Source of the DNA: Siphonodentalium dalli | Taxonomy: Eukaryota; Mollusca; Scaphopoda; Gadilida; Siphonodentaliidae | NCBI GenBank assembly: GCA_032622095.1 | Contig: CP136063.1 | Span: 91,551,980-91,615,979, forward strand | Direction: 5' to 3' | DNA length: 64,000 nucleotides | In this document: one piece after another, positions 14,528-60,372 of the stretch | Position numbering within the stretch: the first letter of the stretch is position 1 | Layout: each line of letters starts with the position of its first letter | Position numbers and translations under genes: made by a program | The notes under the pieces: generated by a model | Databases searched by the model: none | Seen by the model: the letters and a program-made list of their open reading frames with translations, nothing else | Told to the model about the DNA's origin: nothing

Positions 14528-14587
14528 GCATGTTAGACCTACTTACCAAGATGGCGAAAATTATTTTGCCACGATTCCACGCTCTGT

Positions 14588-14621
<34 letters not shown>

Positions 14622-30083: not shown

Positions 30084-30342
30084 CCGCCTGGTCTTGCCAT
30101 TTTGAAAATATTATCAACCAGGTTCCAGGTTCAATATTGAAAGGACCTGTTCAAAAGTACACGTGGTCGTTGTACATTGACAGGTATACACCAATTTGAT
30201 AAGTCCTCAAATCAACCCTCGGACTTTTTTTGTTGGTTTTTAGGTAACCTTAACTTAATTTTAATATTTAGTTTTCCACATCAAGCAAGATAAAGGAAGT
30301 ACAGTGGTTGTTTGTTTTCCACGTTGTCTACATGCCAAATTT

Positions 30343-38542: not shown

Positions 38543-40336
38543 AATCAATACCTTTTTCATTACAGCATCTTTCCATAATACTGATGGTTAATATACCGGT
38601 TTCGATGTCAAGTTTTCTTCTAAAATGTCATTTGGATTTTCTTCGGCAAATCTCTGGTCAATCATTTTTACAGCGATACTCATTAAACAGCAGACGGCGA
38701 CAAAATAAACACCCAAACTACATCAGCTTAATTCCGGGTACGAAAACCCAGTCAATAAAATGTGATTACGAAAACTCACCTGAGAGAAAGTTTTAGCTAA
38801 ATTTATATGTGGACCCAAATTCAGCGGCAGATAAATGTACGGTTCAATAACATTTCTATATACGAGTATTGCCTCGTCAGATAGCTTTCACAGTTCAATA
38901 ATATCGAGTAAATTTAATCTTGAATCAGCGGGCGACGAATTATGGATATACCAATACGCAAGTATCAATACGGATTGCTCTCCGCCGAATTAAGTGGATG
39001 AAAAATAATTTAAGACATTCTACTGCCAATATTATCTGCTTTTTTGTGAACGACTCATTTGTAGAATCGATATTTCAACACAACCATCGCAGAGGCGACA
39101 GGAAAAATCTAAATATTGAAGCGGAGAAATATGATTTGTTACTATAAATGGAACAAGAATAGTCACGCGTGATTATCTTCGATAGCAGGTGAAGGTAGTA
39201 GGTCAGTGGGGAAACTATCGGAAATAGTATAACAGTATAAAGCCAATCAGAATGCGAGAGAATCATGTGAGATATAATATAATACTTATTCAAGCTAAAT
39301 CATCTAGTAATAAAGCTGCATATTATAACCAATGAATTCATTGAAACATAACCGGTACAAAATTGGTTTATGCTACCAGACCAGACTGTTAGTGGTACAG
39401 CAATTTTTCAAAATTTTCTAAATGACACTTCCTAGTTTACAGTTGAAAATTAAATATATTTACCATGAAATTTGGTATATTTAACAAAAGGGCACATTGC
39501 ACAGAATTAAGTGGTAAGCTTTGTTTTAAATGAGATATTTTTGACCAATATATCCAATCAATAGTGCATACCTGCAACATATGATTAATGCATGAGTGAA
39601 TTCCAAGCAAAAATTGTGGTCCCTTGATACAACCACAGTGAATATACTTGCAATAATAAAACCAATGAGTCAACGAGGACAAAATAGTAGATTTCATTTA
39701 TTGTAGTTTTCATAAGGAAGTAAGTACGGTTCGAGTTTGTTTTATTTGGAAACAATTATCTACATTTCAGAAATGTTGTCAAGTACTATAAAAAGAAATC
39801 AGTGATCAAATTCGACGAATATCAGACATATGCCTCTTAAGCATGATATATAGAACGTTCTTTGTTACTCTTCTTGATATGGTATAAATAAAAAGCATTT
39901 GTCTGACTGACAAAAATAGAAAAGAGGTTGAACAATTGTTTTTGTATAATATAAAACCAACAGGGCCCACTGATATTACACATGTTGCATTATAGCAGTC
40001 ATACGGTTGGGGTTAAGTGTGTAAGTGTATTCATTAACGCTAACTACATTTACGATATCAGTTATTTATTTGGAAAAAAATATATATAATGGTTTTGGGG
40101 AGTGTCTTCGTCTGCGAGAACACCGTATTCCCTAACAACGGTGCGTAGTGATATACAGCCACTGTGCGTATTTTGTTGTGTCCATTCTCAAAGTGGCATA
40201 TACGATGCCTGTAGTTTCTGCCATCTATCGTGTAACCTGGAAGCAAACAAAGACAGTTAATATGGTTTACAATAAGGTCCGCGGCATTGCCGTGTTGTGG
40301 ATAAGTGGTCCTGCTAATTTGCTAGTGTGTCAATTA
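38543..40336. other. No gene recognised
   Basis: AT-rich. 39840-39910 holds a short relic of the TTAA MITE core (GATATGGTATAAATAAAAAG). 39150-39300 has a diverged match to 48890-49050 (AATCAGAATGCGAGAGAATC-like). No coding exon supported. Confidence 0.4.
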
Positions 40337-40677
40337 AAGGGGTACTGTACACTAAATCCGGCCATTTATGGGAGCATCTCCTTTATTCTCAACAGAATTT
40401 ATGCAACAAATGAATGACTTGGAGCCATAGATTAGTTCAAAATACACCCATATGTCCACGAATGATGCAAACAACAAGGTAATGAAAATGAATTTATGGC
40501 TGTAGTCATAAATTCATTTTCGTTATAATTACCATGTTGTTTGTATCGTTTATATGGTAAATGAGTGTACTTTGCACTCATCCGTGGCTCAAATTCATTC
40601 ATTTGTTGCATATAGTCTGTTGAGTTCAAAATGAGATTGTCCAAAAAAATGGCCAGATTTAGTGTACAGTACCCCTT
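40337..40677. mobile_element. MITE with AAGGGGTACTGTAC termini, copy B
   Basis: Near-complete hairpin: AAGGGGTACTGTACACTAAA at the left and the same sequence inverted at the right, flanked by TA (also readable as TTAA). Inner arms include CAACAAATGAATGA / TCATTCATTTGTTG. Same family as 24372-24732. Confidence 0.9.
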
Positions 40678-40828
40678 TAACATTGATTAGCATATATATA
40701 TTTCATAAATATTTTAATCATGGCTGATCTGGTGTTTGCAACACGACAGGAATAACCATCTCGATTATGTTCGGTTTGACACAACCAAAAGTGCAAATAT
40801 TACATACATTACAATATGTATGTTTTGA

Positions 40829-40838
40829 ACGTTTTATA
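40829..40838 (+). repeat. Left target-site duplication of the giant foldback element
   Basis: ACGTTTTATA, identical to 59594-59603. If the element begins with A at 40838 the duplication is 9 bp (ACGTTTTAT), matching a T at the other terminus. Confidence 0.75.
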
Positions 40839-40937
40839 GGTGTGCGAAGTTGGTTTGACATTGGACGTTGGACGTTCAACAAAAACGATCTAAACACCGC
40901 ATATTTGCAGATGAAAATTAGTGTGAAGTTGGTTTGA
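40838..40937 (+). repeat. Left leader of the giant element
   Basis: GTGTGCGAAGTTGGTTTGAC followed by ATTGGACGTTGGACGTTC, a 40-base spacer (AAACGATCTAAACACCGC...), then the same phrase again. The mirror image is at 59500-59593. The doubled subterminal phrase could be protein binding sites. Confidence 0.8.
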
Positions 40938-43900
40938 CATTGGACGTTGGACGTTCAACACTGTGGATCTAAAAAGGGGTTACCGGCAGATGACTCGAAT
41001 CGCACATATATAGGCACAGGTAGGACCGCTTTGTTTCGGTCCAAGCGGTATTGCGTGGGAATAATCTATGCTCCATAGGATTTCCCTACCGAAATTTCAA
41101 GGTTATTGATCCACTGGTTTTGCCTCTACCATCTGCACTCACGGCGAACTTTAGACAGAATTTTCTAAGTCGAACGTCCATTTGTTTACCTTTCGAAAGA
41201 CATTCAAACAGACATTCAAATATATGCTTCTGGCCCAATTATAGGGCCCGTTTCGGGTGCCATGGGCGTACCCGGATGTGTAACGAATGAAAATCATCGG
41301 CATATCATAATGCTTGCAGTTTGTGAGATAATGGGGGTGATCAAATATTTGGGAATATCGCTGTGAAGTTGGACGGACGTTGGACGTTCGTGGACATTCG
41401 CGACACGGTCTGTTTTCAATGAAATACCATAGACTCGCATTTGTTGATATGACTAACAGCTGCCTTGTGCCCACACAACTCTTATTTAAAAAAATCACCC
41501 TCCTTGCAAACATATTTCCATGCAAATAATCGAATTGTTGAATGTCCACGAACGTCCAACGTCCGTCTAACTTCACAGCACAATTTCCAAAAAAAAAAAA
41601 AAACGCAGTTTCCAGTTTGCACCAGGAGACTTCTCTTGACCTAATTCGCGCTCTCAAACAGACAAATTTAAAAAAAAAAATTAAGAGAATTTTCCGAATG
41701 TTTTTTACTTTGAAAAACATTGGACGTTGGACGTTCAACACTGTGGATCTAAAAAGGGGTTACCGGCAGATGACTCGAATCGCACATATATAGGCACAGG
41801 TAGAACCGCTTTGTTTCGGTCCAATCAGTATTGCGTGGGAATAATCTATGCTCCATAGGATTTCCCTACCGAAATTTCAAGGTTATTGATCCACTGGTTT
41901 TGCCTCTACCCTCTGCACTCACGGCGAACTTTAGACAGAATTTTCTAAGTCGAACGTCCATTTGTTTACCTTTCGAAAGACATTCAAACAGACATTCAAA
42001 TATATGCTTCTGGCCCAATTATAGGGCCCGTTTCGGGTGCCACGGGCGTACCCGGATGTGTAACGAATGAAAATCATCGGCATATCATAATGCTTGCAGT
42101 TTGTGAGATAATGGGTGTGATCAAATATTTGAGAATATCGCTGTGAAGTTGGACGGACGTTGGACGTTCGTGGACATTCGCGACACGGTCTGTTTTCAAT
42201 GAAATACCATAGACTCGCATTTGTTGATATGACTAACAGCTGCCTTGTGCCCACACAACTCTTATTTAAAAAAATCACCCTCCTTGCAAACATATTTCCA
42301 TGCAAATAATCAAATTGTTGAATGTCCACGAACGTCCAACGTCCGTCTAACTTCACAGCACAATTTCCAAAAAAAAAAAAACGCAGTTTGCAACCAGGAG
42401 ACTTCTCTTGACCTAATTCGTGCTCTCAAACAGACAAATTTAAAAAAAATATTTAAGAGAATTTTCCGAATGTTTTTTACTTTGAAAAACATTGGACGTT
42501 GGATGTTCAACACTGTGGATCTAAAAAGGGGTTACCGGCAGATGACTCGAATCGCACATATATAGGCACAGGTAGAACCGCTTTGTTTCGGTCCAAGCGG
42601 TATTGCGTGGGAATAATCTATGCTCCATAGGATATCCCTACCGAAATTTCAAGGTTATTGATCCACTGGTTTTGCCTCTACCTTCTGCACTCACGGCGAA
42701 CTTTAGACAGAATTTTCTAAGTCGAACGTCCATTTGTTTACCTTTCGAAAGACATTCAAACAGACATTCAAATATATGCTTCTGGCCCAATTATAGGGCC
42801 CGTTTCGGGTGCCATGGGCGTACCCGGATGTGTAACGAATGAAAATCATCGGCATATCATAAAGCTTGCAGTTTGTGAGATAATGGGGGTGATCAAATAT
42901 TTGGGAATATCGCTGTGAAGTTGGACGGACGTTGGACGTTCGTGGACATTCGCGGCACGGTCTGTTTTCAATGAAATACCATAGACTCGCATTTGTTGAT
43001 ATGACTAACAGCTGCCTTGTGCCCACACAACTCTTATTTAAAAAAATCACACCCCTTGCAAACATATTTCCATGCAAATAATCAAATTGTTGAATGTCCA
43101 CGAACGTCCAACGTCCGTCTAACTTCACAGCACAATTTCCACAAAAAAAAAAAAACGCAGTTTCCAGTTTGCACCAGGAGACTTCTCTTGACCTAATTCG
43201 TGCTCTCAAACAGACAAATTTAAAAAAAAAATTTAAGAGAATTTTCCGAATGTTTTTTACTTTGAAAAACATTGGACGTTGGACGTTCAACACTGTGGAT
43301 CTAAAAAGGGGTTACCGGCAGATGACTCGAATCGCACATATATAGGCACAGGTAGAACCGCTTTGTTTCGGTCCAAGCGGTATTGCGTGGGAATAATCTA
43401 TGCTCCATAGGATTTCCCTACCGAAATTTCAAGGTTATTGATCCACTGGATTTGCCTCTACCTTCTGCACTCACGGCGAACTTTAGACAGAATTTTCTAA
43501 GTCGAACGTCCATTTGTTTACCTTTCGAAAGACATTCAAACAGACATTCAAATATATGCTTCTGGCCCAATTATAGGGCCCGTTTCGGGTGCCATGGGCG
43601 TACCCGGATGTGTAACGAATGAAAATCATCGGCATATCATAATGCTTGTGAGATAATGGGGGTGATCAAATATTTGGGAATATCGCTGTGAAGTTGGACG
43701 GACGTTGGACGTTCGTGGACATTCGCGGCACGGTCTGTTTTTAATGAAATACCATAGACTCGCATTTGTTGATATGACTAACAGCTGCCTTGTGCCCACA
43801 CAACTCTTATTTAAAAAAATCACACTCCTTGCAAACATATTTCCATGCAAATAATCAAATTGTTGAATGTCCACGAACGTCCAACGTCCGTCTAACTTCA

Positions 43901-46900
43901 CAGCACAATTTCCAACAAAAAAAAAAAACGCAGTTTCCAGTTTGCACCAGGAGACTTCTCTTGACCTAATTCGCGCTCTCAAACAGACAAATGTTTAAAA
44001 AAAATTTAAGAGAATTTTCCGAATGTTTTTTACTTTGAAAAACATTGGACGTTGGACGTTCAACACTGTGGATCTAAAAAAGGGGTTACCGGCAGATGAC
44101 TCGAATCGCACATATATAGGCACAGGTAGAACCGCTTTGTTTCGGTCCAAGCGGTATTGCGTGGGAATAATCTATGCTCCATAGGATTTCCCTACCGAAA
44201 TTTCAAGGTTATTGATCCACTGGTTTTGCCTCTACCATCTGCACTCACGGCGAACTTTAGACAGAATTTTCTAAGTCGAACGTCCATTTGTTTACCTTTC
44301 GAAAGACATTCAAACAGACATTCAAATATATGCTTCTGGCCCAATTATAGGGCCCGTTTCGGGTGCCATGGGCGTACCCGGATGTGTAACGAATGAAAAT
44401 CATCGGCATATCATAATGCTTGTGAGATAATGGGGGTGATCAAATATTTGGGAATATCGCTGTGAAGTTGGACGGACGTTGGACGTTCGTGGACATTCGC
44501 GGCACGGTCTGTTTTTAATGAAATACCATAGACTCGCATTTGTTGATATGACTAACAGCTGCCTTGTGCCCACACAACTCTTATTTAAAAAAATCACACT
44601 CCTTGCAAACATATTTCCATGCAAATAATCAAATTGTTGAATGTCCACGAACGTCCAACGTCCGTCTAACTTCACAGCACAATTTCCAACAAAAAAAAAA
44701 AACGCAGTTTCCAGTTTGCACCAGGAGACTTCTCTTGACCTAATTCGCGCTCTCAAACAGACAAATGTTTAAAAAAAATTTAAGAGAATTTTCCGAATGT
44801 TTTTTACTTTGAAAAACATTGGACGTTGGACGTTCAACACTGTGGATCTAAAAAAGGGGTTACCGGCAGATGACTCGAATCGCACATATATAGGCACAGG
44901 TAGAACCGCTTTGTTTCGGTCCAAGCGGTATTGCGTGGGAATAATCTATGCTCCATAGGATTTCCCTACCGAAATTTCAAGGTTATTGATCCACTGGTTT
45001 TGCCTCTACCCTCTGCACTCACGGCGAACTTTAGACAGAATTTTCTAAGTTGAACGTCCATTTGTTTACCTTTCGAAAGACATTCAAACAGACATTCAAA
45101 TATATGCTTCTGGCCCAATTATAGGGCCCGTTTCGGGTGCCATGGGCGTACCCGGATGTGTAACGAATGAAAATCATCGGCATATCATAATGCTTGTGAG
45201 ATAATGGGGGTGATCAAATATTTGGGAATATCGCTGTGAAGTTGGACGGACGTTGGACGTTCGTGGACATTCGCGGCACGGTCTGTTTTCAATGAAATAC
45301 CATAGACTCGCATTTGTTGATATGACTAACAGCTGCCTTGTGCCCACACAACTCTTATTTAAAAAAATCACACTCCTTGCAAACATATTTCCATGCAAAT
45401 AATCAAATTGTTGAATGTCCACGAACGTCCAACGTCCGTCTAACTTCACAGCACAATTTCCAACAAAAAAAAAAAACGCAGTTTCCAGTTTGCACCAGGA
45501 GACTTCTCTTGACCTAATTCGTGCTCTCAAACAGACAAATTTAAAAAAAAAATTTAAGAGAATTTTCCGAATGTTTTTTACTTTGAAAAACATTGGACGT
45601 TGGACGTTCAACACTGTGGATCTAAAAAGGGGTTACCGGCAGATGACTCGAATCGCACATATATAGGCACAGGTAGAACCGCTTTGTTTCGGTCCAAGCG
45701 GTATTGCGTGGGAATAATCTATGCTCCATAGGATTTCCCTACCGAAATTTCAAGGTTATTGATCCACTGGATTTGCCTCTACCTTCTGCACTCACGGCGA
45801 ACTTTAGACAGAATTTTCTAAGTCGAACGTCCATTTGTTTACCTTTCGAAAGACATTCAAACAGACATTCAAATATATGCTTCTGGCCCAATTATAGGGC
45901 CCGTTTCGGGTGCCATGGGCGTACCCGGATGTGTAACGAATGAAAATCATCGGCATATCATAATGCTTGCAGTTTGTGAGATAATGGGGGTGATCAAATA
46001 TTTGGGAATATCGCTGTGAAGTTGGACGGACGTTGGACGTTCGTGGACATTCGCGGCACGGTCTGTTTTCAATGAAATACCATAGACTCGCATTTGTTGA
46101 TATGACTAACAGCTGCCTTGTGCCCACACAACTCTTATTTAAAAAAATCACACTCCTTGCAAACATATTTCCATGCAAATAATCAAATTGTTGAATGTCC
46201 ACGAACGTCCAACGTCCGTCTAACTTCACAGCACAATTTCACAAAAAAAAAAACGCAGTTTCCAGTTTGCACCAGGAGACTTCTCTTGACCTAATTCGCG
46301 CTCTCAAACAGACAAATGTTTAAAAAAAATTTAAGAGAATTTTCCGAATGTTTTTTACTTTGAAAAACATTGGACGTTGGACGTTCAACACTGTGGATCT
46401 AAAAAGGGGTTACCGGCAGATGACTCGAATCGCACATATATAGGCACAGGTAGAACCGCTTTGTTTCGGTCCAAGCGGTATTGCGTGGGAATAATCTATG
46501 CTCCATAGGATTTCCCTACCGAAATTTCAAGGTTATTGATCCACTGGATTTGCCTCTACCTTCTGCACTCACGGCGAACTTTAGACAGAATTTTCTAAGT
46601 CGAACGTCCATTTGTTTACCTTTCGAAAGACATTCAAACAGACATTCAAATATATGCTTCTGGCCCAATTATAGGGCCCGTTTCGGGTGCCATGGGCGTA
46701 CCCGGATGTGTAACGAATGAAAATCATCGGCATATCATAATGCTTGCAGTTTGTGAGATAATGGGGGTGATCAAATATTTGGGAATATCGCTGTGAAGTT
46801 GGACGGACGTTGGACGTTCGTGGACATTCGCGGCACGGTCTGTTTTCAATGAAATACCATAGACTCGCATTTGTTGATATGACTAACAGCTGCCTTGTGC

Positions 46901-47526
46901 CCACACAACTCTTATTTAAAAAAATCACACTCCTTGCAAACATATTTCCATGCAAATAATCAAATTGTTGAATGTCCACGAACGTCCAACGTCCGTCTAA
47001 CTTCACAGCACAATTTCCAACAAAAAAAAAAACGCAGTTTCCAGTTTGCACCAGGAGACTTCTTTTGACCTAATTCGCGCTCTCAAACAGACAAATGTTT
47101 AAAAAAAATTTAAGAGAATTTTCCGAATGTTTTTTACTTTGAAAAACATTGGACGTTGGACGTTCAACACTGTGGATCTAAAAAAGGGGTTACCGGCAGA
47201 TGACTCGAATCGCACATATATAGGCACAGGTAGAACCGCTTTGTTTCGGTCCAAGCGGTATTGCGTGGGAATAATCTATGCTCCATAGGATTTCCCTACC
47301 GAAATTTCAAGGTTATTGATCCACTGGTTTTGCCTCTACCCTCTGCACTCACGGCGAACTTTAGACAGAATTTTCTAAGTCGAACGTCCATTTGTTTACC
47401 TTTCGAAAGACATTCAAACAGACATTCAAATATATGCTTCTGGCCCAATTATAGGGCCCGTTTCGGGTGCCATGGGCGTACCCGGATGTGTAACGAATGA
47501 AAATCATCGGCATATCATAATGCTTG
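40938..47526 (+). repeat. ~775-bp tandem array, 8.5 units, forward arm
   Basis: Units begin with CATTGGACGTTGGACGTTCA near 40938, 41718, 42490, 43270, 44043, 44817, 45591, 46368 and 47147 (spacings 772-780); the last is cut at about 47526. Each unit holds a 39-base inverted repeat (CTGTGAAGTTGGACGGACGT ... ACGTCCGTCTAACTTCACAG, for example 41360-41398 and 41542-41580), an A-run, and an ACCGCTT...AAGCGGT hairpin. Unit-to-unit differences are mostly single bases and A-run length. Units 4, 5 and 6 share a 7-bp deletion (GCTTGTGAG for GCTTGCAGTTTGTGAG). Conserved open frames on both strands are by-products of copying. Confidence 0.95.
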
Positions 47527-49171
47527 CATCCATTATGTATCCATACCACGTATGGCATAAAAAAAACAAAAAACACAACATCTATCATATTCCTCATATA
47601 TTCTCAAAATCATTCCATCTCAGTCACAGTATATTTCAATGTGTCATTTTGGTTATGAAATTGCCTTTCTTTTGGTGCATAAGTCAATAGTATAAAACGA
47701 AGAGAAGTCCAGATATCATAGCGAAACTAGTGAAACCTACAGACAAAAAGCAGTTAGTTTCCCTGGCCAGTAAGTATTGATTATACACGGATACAAATTC
47801 AATTATTACGACCACAATTGCCAAACTTGCGAATTCCCTGTTTATGTAAATTTAGCTTCAATTGACTGCTACGTTATATTATAAAGGAAATATGCCCTAT
47901 AATATAAGCTGTGGCATATTTTTGGTAAGTGACATTTTTTTGGAATTATTGAGAATATTAGGCAGATGGTGAAACTGACGACCCATTTTATTCACAAGTT
48001 TATTGTAGATTTTTTAAGTTTTTGCTACAATATCTCAACTTCCCTTTGTTTGATACTATCAAATTATACATCAAACGAAAGGAATTTCATGGCCAGTAAG
48101 ACACATTGAAAAATAGCTGTGGCTGAGATGTAAAAATATTGAGAATCTGAGGAATATGATAGATATTGGTATATATCCAGTATTTTTCCCCAGGAGCCTG
48201 TGGCGAAATTGGTAGGGATATTACAGGTTTACATCGAAGTACCGTCGCTTTACTCTACTATAGCAGACATTACGCCCAGATTCAGTGGCCAGAGTTTTTT
48301 TATCAATTTTAATCAGCATTATCATACAAATAAATAAAAAATTCAACATTTTAATATCAGAAAGAGTTATATCTTAATGATGCACTGAATTATGTATTAT
48401 TATATAGACAGTTTATGTTGTGTCATTGACTGACAAAATAATGATCCTCGAGGAATAATGGCAAATATTAGTGTCAATTTGCACACAATTTCTGTGCATG
48501 ATTTTGTCACAATTTTATTTGCTGCAAATTTTGGAAATGGTAGATTTTACAATTTACGGCAATCTTTTGATGATGACAGGGAGTATAACTATATTATTAT
48601 TTACAACTAACATCATATATTCCTGATTCATGTGTTTATTTCTATATAGAAATTTCTGGGAAATTTAGAACTGTCCGCTGAGGCTTGCAGAACGCAACGC
48701 ACAAGCTATTGAATACATTGGATAGCTTTGATGGGAGATTTGTAAGATCATTAAAATGTATCAAGAATTCTAATGATATGCGATATTGCAACACGTAATA
48801 TTCATTATATTTTCAGATTAGCCCTATATTCAGGTGTCAATTCTATTGTGCAAAATGAGTTTGTTACTATTCGGTAAAAATAGTAGGCCGGCTATTTGGG
48901 TACTATTATATAGATAATGCATGGCTTGGGGTTGACTTTGCCAAAATAGTGGTTCGAGAGGAGGAATAGTCCACAAGCCATAGTGAAAATAGTGTGGCAG
49001 TGTGCAGCTTATCAGAACGCGAGAAAGTGACATGAACTATATTATAATGTGTTAAATTATGCAGAGAATATGTCACATAATTAGGAGTAACCTCACATTT
49101 TATCTGTTTGTTTTCATCTAGAGAAGACCCGAACTGTTAAGAAGTTTGTTACAGTACAGTAAGGCAATGGT
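47527..49171. other. No gene; starts with a foldback repeat
   Basis: First part of the central region of the giant element. 47581-47680 and 48065-48165 form an inverted repeat; the rest is AT-rich with no coding exon. Confidence 0.4.
47581..48165. repeat. Inverted repeat with ~100-bp arms
   Basis: TCTATCATATTCCTCATATA at the left pairs with CTGAGGAATATGATAGATAT near 48147. Inner pairing includes TCCATCTCAGTCACAG / CTGTGGCTGAGATG and CAATGTGTCA / AGACACATTG. Probably a MITE. It sits exactly at the inner edge of the forward array. Confidence 0.7.
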
Positions 49172-49181
49172 ACTTCAACGT

Positions 49182-49186
<5 letters not shown>

Positions 49187-49218
<32 letters not shown>

Positions 49219-49559
49219 TTTATTGAATCAGTCAGATGATTAACATACATAATGAATGGTTGTACAAAATACAAAATATAGATATATAATATTCATCTGA
49301 TACATACATTCAGGCATACACTCATTCACTCGCTCACGCTTGCACTCTTACTTACATCAACGGGCATTATGTGGCTCTAAACAGGCGATCGGGCAATGAG
49401 TTGGAGTTTTAATTCACGTTAAAACATGTTATTTTTATTTTTGTTTCGGTTTAGCACGACACTCACTGAAGGGTGACTATAATTTCTATAATTATAATTG
49501 AAGAGAGTAAGAGGTAGAACGGAAACATAATTCTTAAAGGAAAAACCGCGAGTCTGATG
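49187..49559 (-). mobile_element. Retrocopied RNA with poly-A tail and 15-bp target duplication
   Basis: ACTTCAACGTAAACT occurs at 49172-49186 and 49560-49574. Between them, on the minus strand, is a ~345-base sequence ending AATAAAAAATT and then about 27 A. The 15-bp direct repeats, the poly-A tail and an AATAAA signal a few bases before it are the signature of LINE-driven retroposition of a polyadenylated RNA. The 5' part has a short open frame (RGFSFKNYVSVLPL) with no recognised domain. It could be a 5'-truncated processed pseudogene or a SINE; no tRNA-like head was seen. Confidence 0.9.
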
Positions 49560-49789
49560 ACTTCAACGTAAACTAGTGTTATACCTACCAATTTCACTAA
49601 CTGATTTATGTCAAAAAAACATGGACTAACACATATCTTGCCATTATAAACACTAGATTCTCATCCAATTGTTTTTATTGGAGTCGATAATTCATATCGT
49701 ATTTTATTAGTCAAGTTTCAAAAACTCAACTTACAGTTTGGCGAGGTGAGTAGATAGGCGTCCGGACCATTGTGCAAGACCATTAGTGG

Positions 49790-50300
49790 GATACTAGTAA
49801 CTCAAACAAACATCAACCGATTTAATTGATATTTGGTATATGCGTCTGCAACAACAATATCTCGAACAAGTTCGAAAACCAGATTTTCCGGTCTTTTATA
49901 TGAAAGTTATGGGTGTTATTTTGTCTATTTTTAGTGACTGATCATTCATGACAAGTTAGCTAGATAACTCAAACTTTGACCGATTTCAATGATATTCAGC
50001 ATTTGAGTCTATGATCACCTCCAAATGGGAGCTATCGAATTTGAACGATTTTTTATGAAAAACATGGCCGCAAGCAGCCATCTTGAATTTCAAATGTGAA
50101 TTCGTCAGCATGCCCTTCAGCCCACATTTATTGCAGATTTGTTTTTGAAACTTTACAGGCTTATTTTTACCTGAGTAATGGCCCTTAGTTCTGAGTTATG
50201 GTTATTTAGTCGTCCATTTTTAGTGATTCTTGGTCAGACAGAGTGACTCTTATGGGGGAAAAAAACCTCTTTGATGTGCAACCCTTGTTTTTGATATTTT
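49790..50300 (+). repeat. Interspersed repeat of the CATGGCCGC-AGCCATCTTG type
   Basis: Phrases such as AACAAACATCAACCGATTTA, CACCTCCAAATGGGAGCTAT and ACATGGCCGCAAGCAGCCAT echo the repeats at 3060-3545 and 54880-55760. Noncoding. Confidence 0.65.
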
Positions 50301-50310
50301 ATTCTTGCTA

Positions 50311-50500
50311 AAGGGGTACTGTACGATAAATACCTCCATTTATGGGACCATCTCCCTTGTATACTCAACAGAATATATATGCAACAAATGAATTAATTTG
50401 AGCCATGGATTAGTGCAAAATACATGCATGTGCTCAATGAATGATGGAAACCTGGTAATTATAAGGAAAATGAGTTTATGTAAAATTGTAATACGACCCT
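50311..50500 (+). mobile_element. MITE with AAGGGGTACTGTAC terminus, single arm
   Basis: The left arm only of the family at 24372 and 40337: AAGGGGTACTGTACGATAAA, then TATGGGACCATCTCC and GCAACAAATGAAT. The matching right arm is missing; the copy breaks near 50500. Confidence 0.8.
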
Positions 50501-51384
50501 GCCTAACTATGCTTAAAAGCCATGTCCTTATTGGCCAGTGGCCCGAGTTACCATGGCTATCTCGTTCCAGTTTTGTGGTACAATTCTACTTTTTCCAATT
50601 GTACCACGAAAAAAATCGGTTTATTCAGATCGCCGCACGCGACTTTTCCCGTCTTTTCTAACTCCGCGCAAACGGGGCATCAACGGAGTACACCCGCACC
50701 GTAACCCTTTGAATTTTGCTACATCTTGACAATCTTGCGAATTTTCTAGCGATTTGTCGCTTGAAACCAGTTTGGTTGCCAATGAATATGGTCCAAATGA
50801 TGTTATGGTATATTGATATATGTTACGACCAAAGAAAGTTACTTAATAAGTATATTAAATGACAAAATAAATCCATGCATGGGGCCGGGCTGTGCATTCG
50901 TCGATTCGATCGAATCTCGATCATATTCGATATTTCGGAATCAAGTTGAAAATGAAAGCGTTTGTTCACCAGTACAGAAGGGGAATAAGATTAGTTTAGT
51001 AAACTAGATAATTTAGATCGCTTTGTGTAAGGAAATTGGTCCATAGTCGATTATCATATATTCATGTTGTCCCAACAACGTTCAAAACAGAAATGACCGC
51101 AATCGTATGTCCTGTACAATTTAAATGAAACGCACGGGCGCCGCTGAAAACACATCGTTTTTTAGCCAATCACAACGATTATTTCTAGAAGAGGTGCCTC
51201 GAAAAGTCAACGGGGGAATTTCATAACAAGACAAGACATTACTAGAGTACTCCATGCAAAGAAATCGAGTACGCCCAATACGAATTACACCACGAAATGT
51301 TTTCTCACCTGATAACCGAAAAAGCGCAGTATTTCGTTGACTATTCAGTCGAATTGTGACCATAAACTTTCAGTCGTATTACAA
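50501..51384. other. No gene recognised
   Basis: Contains a short hairpin at about 50573-50612 (GTGGTACAATT ... AATTGTACCAC), whose phrase GTGGTACAA recurs in the palindrome at 51385. Overlapping open frames in all three forward frames at 50398-50729 have no domain. Confidence 0.4.
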
Positions 51385-51531
51385 AAGAAATAAATACACG
51401 GTGTATCGGTGTGTATGGTCAAGTTGTACCACAAAAAACTGATTGTAGGACTCCGCTACGCGTCGTCCTACAATCAGTTTTTTGTGGTACAACTTGACCA
51501 TACACACCTCTACACCGTGTATTTATTTCTT
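51385..51531. repeat. Near-perfect 147-bp palindrome
   Basis: Arms 51385-51451 and 51465-51531 are 67 bases each with two mismatches, around a 13-base loop (TCCGCTACGCGTC). Phrases: ATAAATACACGGTGTA, AAGTTGTACCACAAAAAACT, GATTGTAGGAC. Near identity of the arms implies recent formation or selection for pairing. Confidence 0.95.
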
Positions 51532-52744
51532 AAATAATTTCCATATACTAGTAGAAAAAAAAATCAAAGGATGGACCAAAAATAGGGTCGGGAGTGGGTG
51601 AGAATCTAGCATTTTGTTTATATTCATAGTATTTCTACATGTTTGCTATTTATTTATGTAATATATAGAAAGAAACTTATTTTCTTGTTATCCATCAATG
51701 CTTTCTTCAAGATATGTTGTGAATTTGTTTTAAAATATTGATCTTGACCTGAGAGCTAATTATACTTCCATGTTTTACATGGAAGTATATTGTTTTTGTG
51801 ATTTTTATTTTTCTCTATTATTATTTGCCTTCTTCTTAGCAATTTTATAATGAGCATAGCTCAGTCAATACAAGAGTTAGAAAGCTAAAACTTTGTATGT
51901 ATATATATGTATACAAACTCTAGTGCTTGGGCATATTGATAATCATGTCCTCACTTGATTTGCAGAGTTATCTCCCTTTATGTGAACAATTGGTGTTTTC
52001 AGAACTCCGAAAATATAAGGAGTACAGCACTGAAATTTGGTCGATACATACATCTTGATATCCACTGAATCATGAGCACATCAAAAACTTTGTCCGTCTT
52101 TCCTCTCCAGAGTTATCTCCCATATATATGTCAACCTCGAAATCTTCTGATCGCCTGTTCTCAAATAGCAAGAAAGATAGCTGGATTTAGTTTCTATGAT
52201 AGTGCTGGCCGTTGTCAATATACTTCACAAAAATAATTTGGACAGGGTCGGACTTACATTTTTTGGTTAGGGTGGGGGCGAAATTTTCGCAATTATTTTT
52301 TTGCGATGATTTCAATCATTTTTACTACCATGTATCTTTAGGACGTACTAATGATCCTCCTGAAAGAATTTTGTAAATCGGTTGAGAAATGTCCAAGTTA
52401 CAGACCATCGAAAATTAATAATTTGGCTTATGAAGGAGCATGGGAGAGGGTGAGACCATACCGGGGAGGCGATGAGACCATGCCGGTGGTGATACCATGT
52501 CGGGGTGGTGAGACCAGGCCGAGGATGGTGAGACCAGGCTGACCGGTGGCGGATGTAAACGTCAGATTTAGCACCAAAAAAAAACAACAAAAAAACAAGT
52601 CCAGCGGAATAATATTTTTATTGCGTGCTCCAGATGGGAAGAGTGATTCGGACCGGAATATACCATTTATCAGTTTTTTGTCCCAACCGTTGCCGATCTA
52701 CAGCATGGACAAGAAAATGACATATTTTTGGCGCCAATTCCAAT
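51532..52744. other. No gene recognised
   Basis: AT-rich; short GGTGAGACCA-type imperfect repeats at 52450-52540. Nothing coding supported. Confidence 0.4.
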
Positions 52745-54030
52745 GGGCTAATTGATGAGCAAGGTTAATGCAGGAGCGGGTATGGTGGTATCTCACAGGT
52801 AGGCCCCCGAAGTTTGATAGCTCTACTATAACAGCAACCTGCCCAACAGCGAGCGAGGTTCGGTGGGTTCAGACTTTTTGCAAATTCCAACAAAAATCAA
52901 AGGGGGGAAATTGTCTAAAAAATGAAACATCGAGCTAAAAAATTTCTGAGTAGTGCATATGATAGATAGTATCCAAGCACAACATATTGATGTCTGCTTA
53001 ATTGGCGCTAAGGTCGAAGGTTTACTCGTGGCGAGGCTTTATAATCTAAATAAGATTTGTTAAGTGCTGTATCACTAACCTATTTTTCTCGCCAAATCCG
53101 ACCGGGTTAATGAAGGAGCGAGCTAATGCAGGAGCAGGTACGTCGATATACTTATGGTAATATCCGAAAGTTTGACCGCTCTACTATCAAAGCAACCTGA
53201 CCAACAGAGAGCTCGTGTTCAGGTGGGTTCAAATTGGCAAATTCCAACAAAAACCAAAAGTTGAAAAATACTTCAAAATATCAAATACGGAGTTACAATG
53301 TTGCTGATGAGCGGGTGTGATAGGGGGTATCAACGCCCAACTCTGGTGCGATTTCTTAAGTTTCAGAGCAAAGGGTTTAATAGTGGCGACGCGATATAGC
53401 GTAATACGTACTACATGCAGATGAACACAGCCTGCCATAGATATATGGCAAAACTCGAAATTCTCCAATATTCCGGTCAAATTCAAACAGGCTAATGAAG
53501 GAGCGAGTGAAATGCGCTAGCAAGTACATCGGTATACAATAGATACATCCTGGAAGTTTGACTGTCGTGGTTTAAAAGCAATCCGTTTAACAGAGAGCTT
53601 GCATCGGTGTGGGTCGAGGCTTTCGGCAAATTCCGTGAAATGTTCTAACGTTTAAAATAAATGCGCAATGAGTTAATCAGGATTAAGTGCCCGATATTAC
53701 ATGCATTCACATGTTAATAGGAAAATACCACCGGATGACTGTATACACTAGGACATTTATCAATATTAATATAATGCAGGGACAGGTACGTCGGTATACT
53801 GTCAGATTGCCCCCAAATTTTGACTGCTCTGCTATAAAAGCAATCTGCCCAACGGAGAGCTCGGTTAGGGATGGTTCACAAGTTTGAAAAATTCCACCGA
53901 AACTAAATTGGGGGGGGGGGGTGGAAGGAATCTCGAATCCAGATAATGCAAAATTGACGAGTGGATGTGATGGGTAGTATCTATGTGCAATTTAGTGCGA
54001 TTTTCTAAGTTTTTGAGCGAACGACTATAG
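52745..54030 (+). repeat. ~340-bp diverged tandem repeat, four units
   Basis: Units start near 52760, 53105, 53490 and 53765 with phrases like AATGCAGGAGCAGGTACGTC, then AGTTTGACCGCTCTACTAT, GCAACCTGACCAACAGAGAG and CAAATTCCAACAAAAACCAA, and end with GATAGGGGGTATC and GTGCGATTT. Divergence is high, so the array is old. Confidence 0.75.
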
Positions 54031-54879
54031 AATGTTGCACGGCCGTAGCATCATATTAATGATATATATCTTAAGACTTTCATGGCTTACAGTGGTATGT
54101 AGTATTTCGCTTATGTAGTGTGAGAGTGTTTGCTATAAATTAGCAGCCAGGGTTGTGGCGTATTGCATAATATTAGTATTATTATAACAATCGTAACAAG
54201 AGACTAAGGGCAGTAATCGCCACGACAGTTTTAACAAATAAATCCGCATATATCATTAATAATATACCAACAAGTCGAAATTCTGAACTTACAATCCATG
54301 TCTATGATCTTTTTCTCATTCATTTCTTTTAATTATTTAATATATAATTTCCATATAATATAAAGATTGAGTTCATTAAAAATTAAATATTCCATGGAAG
54401 TATAAAATTTCTGGCATTTCAGAAATTTAAATCCTAGTTTAATGATTATGTTTTTGTGATATGTTTCCTGTGTTGGTGGATATGTTGAAGATTCCAGCCA
54501 CACGTGCAGCACTTTCTTGTGATATTGCTCTTTCTAGTCGCATCATACAAAATAATGATGATATCGACTTCATTCATTCATTGTAGCCTCATCCATTCAT
54601 TCTAGTCATATGTACAACAACATGTTTGTTTTTTTTATCAAATCTTCAAATGTACGGTATTCTCAGGAAACTAAATGCGTAATATATTTAAAATGATATA
54701 CATGTAAAATCATGTATACAATACAGACGAGCATATGAAAATTTTAAATTTTGGTTCCAATAGTAGCAATATAACTCTTTTCTACTTCCTTTGTAATTGT
54801 GAAGAATTTGGTACACAAAACTCCCATTTTTGGTGTTTACGATTTCCTTCAGAACATCATACAGGTCAAATCTCTCATC
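54031..54879. other. No gene recognised
   Basis: AT-rich spacer within the giant element; nothing supported. Confidence 0.4.
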
Positions 54880-55760
54880 CGATCATCACCAAACTTCATT
54901 ATGGATATTCGGGGTGACCCCTAGATGGGAGCCATCATTTTTTTCCGAATTTTGTTTTACCGGCGTGATTAGGATAACATCTATATCTATCGAATTAAAA
55001 TAATTTTCGATTAAAAACATGACTGCCAGCATCCATCTTGGATATTACTCTTTGCATGACAACACTTTGAGATACCCTACATACCACATCACTCATCTGA
55101 TCGTCACCAAACTTCATATGGATCCTCGTGGTGACCTTTAGATGGGTACTTACCATTTATTCCAAATTTTAATACATTGCCGATAGTGGCCATTCTGGTT
55201 TTCACATTCTAATTAAACACCCTACAGCCCACAGGCCCCTGGGAATAAATACCAGATATTCCAATATATACTTTAACAGTGACTGGTATAGTATATATTG
55301 GTATATCTGCTATTTTCCACCAGGAGCCTGTGTTGCAGCCCATAAATATTGGCAAAATGTTTGGAAAAGTTACAGGCATGTTTGAGATCACCACTAGATG
55401 GGAGCTACATGTATTGAATTTGAATGAATTTTTTTATAAAAACAAAAACAAAAAAACATGGTCGCTGGCAGCCATCTTGGATTTTACTCTTTGCATGACT
55501 AAATTCTTTGGCACGCCCTACAGACCACATCATCCCTCATCCAATCGTCTCCAAACTTCATATCTATCCTTGCTGTGACCTCTAGACGGGAGCTTACCAT
55601 TTTTTCTGAATTTTTTTTTAAAACATGGCTGCCAGCCACAATCTTTAATTTCACATTTCAATCGGCACACCCTGCAGAGGCATGTCTGCGATCGCCTCCA
55701 GATAGGAGCTATCAAATTTGATACATTTTCAATCAAAAACATGGCCATTATACATCCTGT
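54880..55760 (+). repeat. Diverged tandem repeat of the CATGGCTGCCAGC-CATCTTGG type
   Basis: About five units of 100-200 bases share TCACCAAACTTCATATGGAT, GGTGACCTCTAGATGGGAGC, AAAACATGGCTGCCAGC and CATCTTGGATTTTACTCTTT. Similar repeats are widespread in marine invertebrate genomes. A small inverted repeat (55229-55333) interrupts it. Confidence 0.8.
55229..55333. repeat. Short inverted repeat (CACAGGCYCCTGG termini)
   Basis: CACAGGCCCCTGGGAATAAA pairs with TTTTCCACCAGGAGCCTGTG, and the inner AGATATTCCAATATATAC pairs with GTATATATTGGTATATCT. A single arm of the same sequence (CCCCAGGAGCCTGTGG) is at about 48190-48205. A tiny MITE family. Confidence 0.75.
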
Positions 55761-57000
55761 GATTTGATATAAATAATAGTATTTGAAGTGACCAACAATG
55801 TTCAAGCCTAAATTATACTGATTCAACTGGATACTATATATATAATAATTTTTCATGACATGAAGGGGAAAGATTTATATATAATGGGCATAACAATAAA
55901 TGTTAGAAGATACCTGAATCCCCTACTTGTTTCCATATAGGGAAAAAGTAAACAAAAATATCCTCATATTGACACACTTTGGGGCACAATTAACTTGAAC
56001 TGTTGTCTTGTAAAATTGCACTTTTAACATTGTAGGACACATTACATATTTTTGATACAAATGTGTGGCATTTCATAATGGTATTCATGAATATTGGATT
56101 TTAACTATACTGTTTTATTTCATCCGTCCATGAGTGTAAACAAGCAAATTAGCATCACCAATATATAGTTCAAATGATAGTATATGTTAACATTTTTGTT
56201 GCCTTCACATACTCTAGTTTGTTATGTGTACACCTATAAGTTTTCTATGTTTAAATATATAAATGAAGCTGATTTATTTCAACATTGTGTCATCTTATTC
56301 TCCTGCGTAAACCTCTGTCAATACACTTAATTGCCCCCCCCCCCCAATGTCTAATTAAACGCAAGAATGTCAACACACAGCTATTAGAATTGTATTTGGT
56401 GTCTACAAACATTCAAATGTATTTCAGTTTTATATTTGAATGTTTGTTTGAATGTCCTTCAAATTCAACAGGGGAGTCTTCTGGATCAATGATTCTTCCC
56501 GTGGACCACTCTGTCCAAAACAAAGCAGTTCGTCTTGTGCCCATGTGGGAGTCGTGTCAATTTTAGCGAAACTGCAAAAAAATTGACCGACCACTGTCTG
56601 ATTAAACGCAGGGACGTGGCTAGATCGAGGGTCTGTGTTGGGGGGGGGGTGTCCATCTTCGGAAATTCTAATTGCACACACCCCCCTTGAATCAGAATCA
56701 AACCAAGCACAAGGTTTGCATAATTCCATTTGCACCCCGCCCCTTGCACCTCAGTGATCAGGCCTAGTATCCTATATATTAATAAACCACGGTTCTATAT
56801 ATTCCCGGTATGAGAACATTCAGATATTTTAACCTAAAAAATTGTATAAATCCTAACATCTAGTGGTCTAACTCCAGACAAATGCATATGGCACATGCAC
56901 ATTAATTAGAAGGGATTAAATCGACTTTATTTTATTGATGTAGTGTTTATTTAGTTATTTAATTATGTCCCCTACTTAATTTGGTTGATTTAGTGTCATG
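55761..57000. other. No gene recognised; relic of the 775-bp repeat
   Basis: 56400-56470 (TATATTTGAATGTTTGTTTG, then AATGTCCTTCAAATTC) resembles part of the 775-bp unit in the reverse orientation. The phrase TTAAACGCA recurs at about 56354, 56602 and 57637 beside C- or G-rich runs. No coding exon supported. Confidence 0.45.
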
Positions 57001-57560
57001 TTTGTGTAGGCTAAAGTGAAATTTTTCCAACCGATGACCATTTCACTCCACAAGTTGGACCAAATGTAGTAAAATTGTTAATTATTTTTTTAAACTAAAT
57101 AGCAGTTTTGTATTGGCCACGGGGGAGGGACAATGACACACCGGGCCGGGCATGGAAATTTGTTGAAATCTGAACAAGAATATCGCAAATCCTAGCATCT
57201 AGACTAGCCTTAAGCCTTCCTATAGAGTTGGATATTTCAAACCTGACACACCCACTTAGGTCAGCTTAGGTTGGAAAATTTCCAACTGATGACAATTCCA
57301 ATGACAATGTTAACCAAATGTATGACAATATTGTTTTCTTAAATTAACAAGCTTGTTTTGACTGGCCACAGGGGAGGGACCAGGACACAAGCTTTCCAAG
57401 TGTTAGGAATTTCCAACATGTCACTCCCATAATGTTGGAATATTTCCAACTGATGACCATCTCAGTCCAAAAGGTAGGAAAATATGCAAATATATTGGTC
57501 CAAAAACAATAAATTGTTCGAAAATCAAACTTCATGAACATTTTCGACCTTTTGTTTGTG
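57001..57560 (+). repeat. Diverged ~200-bp tandem repeat, 2-3 units
   Basis: Phrases TTTCCAACYGATGACCAT, GACCAAATGT and TGGCCACGGGGGAGGGAC recur near 57028, 57278 and 57449 (first phrase) and near 57116 and 57363 (last). Confidence 0.7.
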
Positions 57561-57689
57561 TGAAATTTCCAACTAATGTTTTGGCAGGTACCACCCCACC
57601 CCCCCCCCCCCCCCCAAAACCATGTCTCCACTTCTCTGATTAAACGCAATAATTTTATAAAAGATATATTACAAAAAGTATTTATACAA

Positions 57690-59499
57690 GCATTCAAATA
57701 TATCGAATAAGAACCCTATAAGATACTTCGAAGCACATGTTTGAATCTCGTTCGGAACTTAGAACAATATGTCTAAAGTTCGCCGTGAGTGCAGAGGGTA
57801 GAGGCAAAACCAGTGGATCAATAACCTTGAAATTTCGGTAGGGAAATCCTATGGAGCATAGATTATTCCCACGTAATACCACTTGGACCGAAACAGAGCG
57901 GTTCTACCTGTGTACATATTTGAATTTCAGTTTGAATGTCTTTCAAAGGGGAAAGGAACATTCGGAAAATTATGTAAAAAAAAAAAGTTTAAAAAATTTG
58001 TGAATTGGAGAGCGCGAATTAGGTCTAGAGAAGTCTCCTTGTGCAAACTGGAAACTGCGGTTTTTTTTGTTGGAAATTGTGCTGTGAAGTTAGACGGACG
58101 TTGGACGTTCGTGGACATTCAACAATTTGATTATTTGCATGGAAATATGTTTGCAAGGAGGGTGATTTTTTTAAATAAGAGTTGTGTGGGCACAAGGCAG
58201 CTGTTAGTCATATCAACAAATGCGAGTTTATGGTATTTCATTGAAAACAGACCGTGTCGCGAATGTCCACGAACGTCCAACGTCCGTCCAACTTCACAGC
58301 GATATTCTCAAATATTTGATCACACCCATTATCTCACAAACTGCAAGCATTATGATATGCCGATGATTTTCATTCGTTACACATCCGGGTACGCCCATGG
58401 CACCCGAAACGGGCCCTATAATTGGGCCAGAAGCATATATTTGAATGTCTGTTTGAATGTCTTTCGAAAGGTAAACAAATGGACGTTCGACTTAGAAAAT
58501 TCTGTCTAAAGTTCGCCGTGAGTGCAGAGGGTAGAGGCAAAACCAGTGGATCAATAACCTTGAAATTTCGGTAGGGAAATCCTATGGAGCATAGATTATT
58601 CCCACGCAATACCGCTTGGACCGAAACAAAGCGGTTCTACCTGTGCCTATATATGTGCGATTCGAGTCATCTGCCGGTAACCCCTTTTTAGATCCACAGT
58701 GTTGAACGTCCAACGTCCAATGTTTTTCAAAGTAAAAAACATTCGGAAAATTCTCTTAAATTTTTTTTTAAAATTTGTCTGTTTGAGAGCGCGAATTAGG
58801 TCAAGAGAAGTCTCCTGGTGCAAACTGGAAACTGCGTTTTTTTTTTGGTGGAAATTGTGCTGTGAAGTTAGACGGACGTTGGACGTTCGTGGACATTCAA
58901 CAATTTGATTATTTGCATGGAAATATGTTTGCAAGGAGGGTGATTTTTTTAAATAAGAGTTGTGTGGGCACAAGGCAGCTGTTAGTCATATCAACAAATG
59001 CGAGTCTATGGTATTTCATTGAAAACAGACCGTGTCGCGAATGTCCACGAACGTCCAACGTCCGTCCAACTTCACAGCGATATTCCCAAATATTTGATCA
59101 CCCCCATTATCTCACAAACTGCAAGCATTATGATATGCCGATGATTTTCATTCGTTACACATCCGGGTACGCCCATGGCACCCGAAACGGGCCCTATAAT
59201 TGGGCCAGAAGCATATATTTGAATGTCTGTTTGAATGTCTTTCGAAAGGTAAACAAATGGACGTTCGACTTAGAAAATTCTGTCTAAAGTTCGCCGTGAG
59301 TGCAGAGGGTAGAGGCAAAACCAGTGGATCAATAACCTTGAAATTTCGGTAGGGAAATCCTATGGAGCATAGATTATTCCCACGCAATACCGCTTGGACC
59401 GAAACAAAGCGGTTCTACCTGTGCCTATATATGTGCGATTCGAGTCATCTGCCGGTAACCCCTTTTTAGATCCACAGTGTTGAACGTCCAATGTCAAAC
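57690..59499 (-). repeat. ~775-bp tandem array, 2.4 units, reverse arm
   Basis: Same unit as 40938-47526, inverted. Unit landmarks on the minus strand recur at 57882, 58609 and 59387 (spacings 727 and 778). The inner unit has a deletion and rearrangement around 57905-57990 and a degenerate inner end near 57690-57770. The outer two units are about as similar to the forward-arm units as those are to each other. Confidence 0.95.
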
Positions 59500-59593
59500 C
59501 AACTTCACACTAATTTTCATCTGCAAATATGCGGTGTTTAGATCGTTTTTGTTGAACGTCCAACGTCCAATGTCAAACCAACTTCACACACCT
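59500..59593 (-). repeat. Right leader of the giant element
   Basis: Mirror image of 40838-40937: CAACTTCACACACCT at the end, preceded by GAACGTCCAACGTCCAATGT and the AAATATGCGGTGTTTAGATC spacer. Confidence 0.8.
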
Positions 59594-59603
59594 ACGTTTT
59601 ATA
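59594..59603 (+). repeat. Right target-site duplication of the giant foldback element
   Basis: ACGTTTTATA, identical and in the same orientation to 40829-40838. Confidence 0.75.
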
Positions 59604-60082
59604 CACATTATGGACTTTCTTAATGGCCATTTCCCCCACCAGCATCATAGCACATTAGCACGACCACTTAACCAGTGATGATTGCTGGATATTCGTTCTC
59701 ATAGAGCTATTAAAATTGCACTTTTTGTGGATTAGAATGGTCGATCATTCATTTAATACCGTACTTCTCTGGGGACGGTATATGATTTGGAAATAATTAT
59801 TGAATTGATAGAATTATCACAGAGGGTACCTTTTTCGACATTCTATCGACAGCGTATATAGTTGCAGCAAATGTAAGAAATTACTTCAGAAACCACTCTT
59901 AGAATTGGAGGCTGAATATTACGATTCGCTTAACCCTTTACCCAACAAAGCGGCCAAAAACGCCCAAATAAAGCTTCAACAGCCTAAAATATCTTCGGTC
60001 TGTCTCACTAACACCATACAAATATGGATATCATTGGAACCGGTTCATTGACCACATTGTGATGGTTACAGTTATGCCCTGT

Positions 60083-60151
60083 GCCAATGCATTCTCTTAT
60101 ATATGCGAGTCGACCATAGGTCGCCTCGCATATATAAGAGAATGCATTGGC
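60083..60151. repeat. 69-bp near-perfect palindrome
   Basis: Arms 60083-60115 and 60119-60151 differ at one base; the centre is ATA. It contains TATATA-rich arms and a GTCGACC / GGTCGCC tip. Confidence 0.95.
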
Positions 60152-60273
60152 CTAAAAACATTCTTTTTTAACACTTTTTACCATTTTTTCTTACATTCTT
60201 TAACAATTTTATAATTTTTTAACATTTTTTATAATATTTTTCTACATTCTTTGACAATTTTATCATTTGTTAA

Positions 60274-60342
60274 GCCAATGCATTCTCTTATATATGCGAG
60301 GCGACCTATGGTCGACTCGCATATATAAGAAAATGCATTGGC
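60274..60342. repeat. 69-bp near-perfect palindrome, inverted copy
   Basis: The same palindrome as at 60083-60151 in reverse (GCGAGGCGACC tip first), with AAGAAAATGCATTGGC at the right arm. The two may derive from one nested insertion with mirrored ends. Confidence 0.9.
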
Positions 60343-60372
60343 ACAGGGCCGTTCTGTTGGGTAAGGGGTTTA

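Follow-up and report, generated by a model that had tools for sequence, protein, structure and literature searches.

A block of 18,756 bp between inverted tandem arrays in a scaphopod genome is very probably a single foldback-type transposon

We analyzed a window of 64,000 nucleotides (the whole stretch of Siphonodentalium dalli DNA considered here) and propose that its positions 40838-59593 are very probably one integrated, non-autonomous foldback-type DNA transposon. The candidate measures 18,756 bp when its target-site duplication is taken as 9 bp, and it ends in leader-capped arrays of a ~775-bp unit, the left array having many units and the right one few (Table 1). The structural evidence comes from one locus, and the unit counts should be read with the caveat that assemblies may misrepresent the length of an array.

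The single-transposon reading rests on an exact 9-bp duplication at tips that are fixed independently by the mirrored leaders. Of two strings specific to the leader, 38 and 45 bp long, the window contains just two copies each, one at either tip in inverted orientation. Compared with the outermost 114 bp of the right arm, the outermost 121 bp of the left show a single substitution and a single 7-bp indel. Directly adjoining both tips is ACGTTTTAT, which has no other occurrence in the window; with the tenth matching base it reads ACGTTTTATA at 40829-40838 and 59594-59603, and the plus strand holds no further copy. The 9- and 10-mer forms are absent from the minus strand of the window, on which the 8-mer occurs once, at 2371. 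The initial annotation had described matching outer leaders, a direct repeat just outside both ends, and terminal bases that mirror each other (AGGTGTG/CACACCT) under the 9-bp reading, all of which hold: on that reading, both tips are AGGTGTG. A match between two 9-mers drawn at random from this window has P = 2.4e-5. When boundary pairs up to 60 bp from the tips were scanned, 13 of 14,641 had a match of at least 7; ten of these belong to the true duplication site, sub-matches included, and three make up a single unrelated cluster in which the longest match is 8. A 9-bp duplication lies within the 8-10 bp of the Foldback-type class (range from PMC4079207), and the locus has the structure of that class, i.e., long inverted tandem-repeat arms ending in a common tip.

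Table 1. Coordinates of the candidate element, its parts, and the flanking duplication
Feature	Position	Strand	Remarks
Left target-site duplication copy, ACGTTTTAT	40829..40837	.	9 bp; the 10th matching base, A, is the element's first base
Left leader, 82 bp, tip AGGTGTGCGAAGTTGG	40838..40919	+	diverged copy of adjoining sequence, 79-bp period, 80% match
Left arm array, units L1-L8 and truncated L9	40920..47528	+	L1-L8 772-780 bp each
52-bp inverted repeat within unit L1	41348..41591	.	90% complementary, 140-bp spacer
Interior	47529..56349	.	dispersed repeats, hairpins, retroposon-like block with 15-bp duplications
Decayed older right-arm copy	56350..56559	-	67% over 117 bp and 91% over 33 bp versus unit
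Decayed third copy R3 and inner flank	57635..57956	-	unit-matching part from about 57749; outer limit approximate
Right arm array, R2 and R1, inverted	57957..59511	-	inner limit approximate
Right leader, tip AGGTGTGTGAAGTTGG read inward	59512..59593	-	
Right target-site duplication copy, ACGTTTTAT	59594..59602	.	

The whole left arm (40838-47528) consists of the 82-bp leader and ~8.5 units of 775 bp, with register starts at 40937, 41717, 42489, 43269, 44043, 44817, 45590, 46367, and 47147 (spacing 772-780); the ninth copy is cut off at 47528, for a forward total of about 8.5. Anchored at 59479 and 58701, the right arm holds ~2.3 reverse copies, namely two similar units and a diverged partial third (R3) with 15-17 substitutions in 199 aligned bases. 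Its inner edge is a gradient to older copies, from R3 to the remnant at 56350-56559, which matches the inner flank of R3 at 70% over 74 columns. The flanks of the element gave no match to a unit probe at E values up to 1. L4, L7, and L8 differ from one another by 1-2 substitutions in about 770 bp, and this near-identity suggests that the left arm grew recently, which we count in support of a single transposon. Counted against it is the left inner edge, where we looked for traces of older units and found none, L9 ending abruptly.

Variants among the units relate the two arms. At columns 446 and 542 of the unit alignment, L1, L2, R1, and R2 carry common alleles that set them apart from L3-L8, the variants at columns 379 and 395 are common to L2 and R2 alone, and L1 differs from R1 at 7 of 778 aligned bases. 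Against such tip-to-tip sorting, columns 174 and 713 group right-arm units with inner left-arm units, and columns 692 and 711 divide the left arm in other ways. The truncated L9 has 0 substitutions relative to R1 and R2 over 360 bp and 2-3 relative to left units; hence, the inner left copy is the closest to the right arm. Part of the variable columns sits in A-rich tracts. The initial annotation had counted about 8.5 forward and 2.4 reverse copies and read the block as one transposed unit with unequal arms. The array pattern stands, with the reverse count nearer 2.3, and the one-unit reading gains support from the tip-to-tip variant correspondence together with the decayed arm copies inside the right boundary.

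Sequences resembling the tip recur inside the arms. A 27-bp part of the L1 inverted repeat matches the tip at 78% and a second tip-like copy (at 40922) at 81%; the 40-bp core arms of this repeat are present in 10/10 full units, as is a tip-like inverted repeat, which is found in both arms. We counted 31 occurrences of the motif GGACGTTGGACGTTC in the arms and 0 in the remainder of the window. We suggest that a transposase made elsewhere, probably of Mutator type, would bind the tips and perhaps also the repeated GGACGTTGGACGTTC motifs, excise the whole block, and insert it with 9-bp staggered cuts. Unequal exchange would make the arrays longer and shorter, conversion between arms would maintain the likeness of the outer units, and inner units would escape conversion and then decay. 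A bolder and unlikely extension starts from the tip-like inverted repeat in each full unit: in such a foldback family, any 775-bp unit might serve as a transposon end, the transposase could join tips to internal ends in varied pairings, and the transposon would be self-expanding and satellite-like, able to carry several kb of passenger DNA.

It is possible, if rather doubtful, that the block is composite, i.e., that two arms or smaller foldback elements bracketed host DNA and that 47529 to ~56350 is captured genomic DNA; such capture has been proposed for large Foldback-flanked segments in Drosophila. Consistent with this, the inner boundaries of the two arms are unrelated, the interior has no recognized transposon coding domain, and it has several repeats in common with the flanks (e.g., 50306-50480 with 24370-24734 and 40334-40682). 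No transposase domain was recognized in 132 interior frames of at least 38 aa or in 8 arm frames, the latter yielding only three weak Pfam matches (E 0.028-0.048) far under the cut-off. A RING-finger match in an interior ORF (49989-50195; E 0.00088, 19.6 bits, cut-off 27.9) was rejected, as the ORF overlaps a dispersed repeat (50007-50069, recurring at 55684-55746). We propose no coding role for the unit reading frames. For 198 aa of the 202-aa unit-spanning frame, a protein search gave nothing at E 0.001 among 43 candidates, and the 7 pattern matches in viral_contigs (viral) included no relative. Rfam and tRNA scans of the whole window were empty, and a 391-aa IgGFc-binding frame had no match among 1,297 protein-search candidates. 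Against capture, the decayed arm copies at 56350-56559 mark the right part of the interior as old element DNA, and nested insertions before or after the jump account equally well for the flank-shared repeats. Since a composite origin still leaves the block one transposed unit, it overlaps with the single transposon that we favor.

As no transposase was found, the enzyme is a guess; it is probably of the Mutator class, an assignment made from two features, duplication length and arm style. The 9-bp duplication lies within the range of 8-11 bp given for MULEs (PMC6446971). No MULE transposase was recognized in the 132 interior or 8 arm frames, which is expected of a non-autonomous copy, and we therefore do not claim MULE membership. 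Another class, of Merlin, hAT, or P/Galileo type, may have moved the foldback element, although we consider this somewhat unlikely. Duplications are 8-9 bp for Merlin and 8 bp for hAT, so the 9 bp seen here would suit Merlin, and classes at 8-10 bp are not separable by duplication length alone. The window also contains two fragments (28450-28734 and 30509-30802), both under the Pfam curated cut-off, of an IS1595/ISXO2-like transposase, which we take to be the domain of Merlin elements; around them are 17 pairs of inverted repeats (16-26 bp, 73-88% complementary). The fragments lie at least 10 kb outside the element, and we dropped a link between them and the element because no tip is near them: the 16-bp tip has four matches in the window at up to 3 mismatches, all inside the arms. 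Galileo illustrates that the P superfamily, too, evolved foldback arms (PMC3688188), but Galileo duplications are mostly 7 bp in the cited part of the source (PMC3573991), versus 9 here.

It is very unlikely that the arms are satellite arrays independent of each other, or the product of a local inverted duplication, with the 9-10 bp match arising by chance: satellite-like repeats can spread without transposition and only one locus is at hand, but the leader caps the outer ends only, in mirror orientation, the exact match is improbable (P 2.4e-5), and an inverted duplication would create no direct repeat exactly at both tips. An assembly error in joining or counting repeats is most improbable, for although 775-bp tandem units mostly at least 98% alike are hard to assemble, the units have distinct variants and the right arm, short and graded as it is, does not look like a clean copy of the left.

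Among foldback elements, FARE of Arabidopsis, whose members can reach many kb, and FB of D. melanogaster resemble the present element in type, by description rather than sequence. Closer is Tetris of Drosophila virilis, a foldback element on the same plan, with repeat-built arms; the present element therefore belongs to a known kind, unusual in scale. In the cited portion of its report (PMC4079207), Tetris makes 8-10 bp duplications, has no conserved ORF and a transposase of unknown source, its repeats share a 37-bp stretch with the flanking domain, and repeat number differs between alleles. Its repeats are ~220 bp, its arms at most 1,735 bp, and its flanking domain up to 866 bp, versus ~775 bp, a 6.7-kb left arm, and 82 bp here. 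The Tm1 Mutator/Foldback family of root-knot nematodes likewise has composite arms, internal repeats, 9-bp duplications, and several member classes, including transposase-less ones; unlike here, its arm motif is ~14 bp, part of its members encode a putative transposase, and the sizes given are 1,080 bp and, for MITE-like members, mostly <0.5 kb (PMC3169594, in part). The novelty implied by the initial annotation was thus overstated, as arms made of repeats, together with duplications of 8-10 bp, are on record for the foldback elements Tetris (PMC4079207) and Tm1 (PMC3169594).

Galileo shares long tandem-repeat arms with unequal repeat numbers, and its repeats contain additional transposase-binding sites, for which the tip-like repeats would be candidate counterparts; it differs in its 7-bp duplications, ~210-bp repeat, known P-type transposase, and arms of up to ~1.26 kb in D. 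mojavensis (PMC3573991, PMC3688188, both in part). Plant Mutator-like elements with tandem inverted repeats also carry end sequences in tandem at both ends, but with few copies and, in the main families covered by the cited part, ~1.3-1.4 kb in total (PMC3310237). Phantom and Rehavkus have 8-10 bp or 9-bp duplications, inverted repeats, and, in some, a minisatellite near one end; unlike here, their arms are 18-613 bp (or none) and 26-400 bp, respectively, a transposase is present, and the cited part does not state that tandem sequence builds both arms (PMC6446971). The 9-bp duplication fits Rehavkus, and the interior scan (132 frames) showed no PHD-finger transposase domain. Overall, the element agrees with a type of mobile DNA that is known although not common; its most striking features are its size and its lopsided arms.

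Exact tip patterns had 0 matches in viral_contigs (viral; 38 and 21 bases) and genome_contigs (prokaryotic; 29 bases), collections that, being viral and prokaryotic, say little about animals. Among the titles listed in literature searches, none refers to a foldback element of molluscs whose arms are tandem arrays; the word "foldback" occurs 0 times in a bivalve transposon paper (PMC10294476) and once, in a reference, in an oyster satellite paper (PMC8268682). Foldback elements are a link between transposons and satellite DNA, and in Drosophila, Tetris repeats reportedly gave rise to satellite arrays (PMC4079207, in part). If our reading is true, a 6.7-kb array with a transposon tip, an inverted partner, and an intact target duplication would capture the transposon-satellite transition at one locus, and this locus would allow a test of whether tandem arms aid the movement of long elements, as suggested for Galileo in the cited part of PMC3688188.

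The ~775-bp unit behaves as the initial annotation had proposed, as a tandem array running forward on the left and inverted on the right. A repeat search of the window recovered nine in-register left copies from ~40937 (spacing 772-780 bp), the last of which (L9) is truncated and ends at 47528, and inverted copies matching these units at 57749-59513. Numbering units inward from the tip (the outermost end of each arm), L1-L8 and R1 differ pairwise by 0.1-1.8% substitutions, and R2 differs from them by up to 2.5%. Between the outermost 121 bp of the left arm and the corresponding 114 bp of the right, the only differences are a single substitution and a 7-bp indel, and each tip has one copy of strings specific to the leader, the terminal 82 bp, that are not seen elsewhere in the window. 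ACGTTTTATA adjoins both tips and is absent from the rest of the window. We preferred a 9-bp reading of this duplication because both tips then begin AGGTGTG, whereas a 10-bp reading makes one end a base longer. Random agreement of two 9-mers from the window has P = 2.4e-5; when every pairing of boundaries up to 60 bp from the tips was scored (14,641 in all), 13 matched at 7 or more positions, ten of them belonging to the true site and three to one other cluster (maximum match 8). Hence, the matching leaders, the direct repeat at both outer ends, and the terminal mirror claimed earlier all hold.

We aligned L1-L9, R1, and R2 with one another. Twenty-four of the first 725 columns, gap columns counted, have a minor state common to at least two units. 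At columns 446 and 542, L1, L2, R1, and R2 are alike as against L3-L8, and columns 379 and 395 have a state common to L2 and R2 only, so the outer two positions of the left and right arms correspond. Column 725 likewise unites L2 and R2 only, in an A-rich tract; alignment is uncertain in such tracts (columns 632-635 and 711-725). Columns 174 and 713 group right-arm units with inner left units, against tip-to-tip sorting, and columns 692 and 711 divide the left arm in other ways. L9 shows 0 substitutions from R1 or R2 over 360 bp, versus 2-3 from L1-L8. There are 1-2 substitutions between any two of L4, L7, and L8 and 2 between L4 and L5; a 7-bp deletion is common to L4-L6. Such similarity is the signature of recent duplication within the left array. 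The outer units would reflect conversion or common descent, with later growth of the left arm.

The right arm decays inward. R3, its third unit, carries 15-17 substitutions in 199 aligned bases. Further in, and in right-arm orientation, two stretches still resemble the unit: 56451-56559 (67% over 117 bp, E = 5e-8) and 56431-56463 (91% over 33 bp). In a control with reversed sequence, a single weak place appeared (E = 0.02 and 0.04 for the two queries), and the element flanks, searched to E = 1, gave no remnant match. The inner flank of R3 (57635-57703) resembles 56350-56422 at 70% (E = 3e-7), a comparison that also gave weaker matches (E of at least 0.002), some inverted. These inner matches show that the right arm formerly extended to ~56350 or beyond. 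A corresponding search of the left inner side found no decayed unit remnant.

L1 and L2 each contain an inverted repeat of 52 bp, its arms 88-90% complementary and separated by a 140-bp spacer; the 40-bp core of these arms recurs, with 0 or 1 mismatch, in every one of the ten full units (eight left, two right). As a single strand, this part of L1 folds far better than its shuffled versions (z = -11.3; 0/200). Of the inverted repeat, 27 bp resemble the tip (78%) and a second tip-like copy that lies at 40922 (81%). GGACGTTGGACGTTC is found only inside the arms, 19 times on the forward strand and 12 times on the reverse. By analogy with Galileo, a Drosophila foldback-type element whose tandem repeats hold extra binding sites demonstrated by gel shift (PMC3688188, in excerpt), these motifs may be transposase sites. 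The leader is a diverged copy of the adjoining inner sequence (79-bp period, 80%), a kinship like that in Tetris of Drosophila virilis, whose repeats have 37 bp in common with its flanking domain (excerpt of PMC4079207).

We scanned the interior, between the arms, as 132 stop-to-stop frames of at least 38 aa (47529-57756; Pfam, E 0.1). Twelve families matched, one frame each, and no eukaryotic transposase domain was among them, in a scan that small or broken exons can escape. The best match, RING (E = 0.00088), is under cut-off and in repeat DNA; a Cas12f1-like TNB match (E = 0.053) is regarded as chance. Eight frames picked from the many in the arms, with each arm and each strand represented, yielded three weak Pfam matches under cut-off and nothing else. 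The interior also carries hairpins, and dispersed repeats that recur in the flanks, and its poly-T-led block appears to be a retroposon-like insertion. The window also holds a tandem block that is possibly a Merlin-like remnant, and reverse transcriptase fragments; together with a frame for an IgGFc-binding domain protein, these fragments fit an animal genome.

Coordinates of array units, interior features, and other features of the window
Feature	Position	Strand	Details
Left unit anchors	40959, 41739, 42511, 43291, 44064, 44838, 45612, 46389, 47168	+	
Right unit anchors	59479, 58701	-	
Interior hairpin	51385-51531		147 bp; 92.5% self-complementary
Interior decayed tandem repeat	52720-53914		copies near 52720, 53078, 53478, 53772; ~71-75% alike
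Interior poly-T-led block	49172-49574		exact 15-bp direct repeats ACTTCAACGTAAACT at 49172 and 49560
Possible Merlin-like block	28433-32157		two diverged tandem copies (79-81%); broken IS1595/ISXO2-type transposase-like frames at 30509-30802 (E = 1.1e-5) and 28450-28734 (E = 0.001), both under Pfam cut-off
Palindromic repeat	40334-40682		~350 bp; a short way outside left tip; relatives at 24370-24734 and, as a half, 50306-50480 inside element
Paired palindromes	60076-60349		two of 69 bp, 91% alike, flanking T-rich spacer
Inverted match	59930-60110		to window 1-181, 94%
Tandem copies	14557-16989		~870-890 bp spacing, 94% alike
Open frame	5673-6845		391 aa; IgGFc-binding domain, E = 4.8e-46

The plan of the element is close to that of Tetris as excerpted (PMC4079207). 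Tm1 of root-knot nematodes (PMC3169594) has foldback-like arms and 9-bp duplications, some members carry a putative transposase, and its authors assign it to Mutator. In an excerpt of PMC3573991, the two arms of Galileo differ in repeat number, as here, but its duplications are 7 bp rather than 9 bp long. Excerpts describe Mutator-like elements as making 8-11 bp duplications and, in one survey, as having mollusc groups among them (PMC6446971), and as present in every genome of a mollusc study (PMC10294476). The left arm, at 6.7 kb, is long against the arm lengths that these partial sources give for the known elements.

Mirror arms, common tips, the flanking duplication, variant sharing between arms, and inner decay on the right bear out the proposal that 40838-59593 is very probably one transposed unit. 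An enzyme encoded at another locus would cut and paste the block, with the target cut staggered by 9 bp; array length would change through unequal exchange, and the outer units would be homogenized. Duplication length and arm style, the basis for classing this enzyme, lean towards a Mutator type. The block is a well-supported single insertion whose plan is ordinary and whose scale is unusual.
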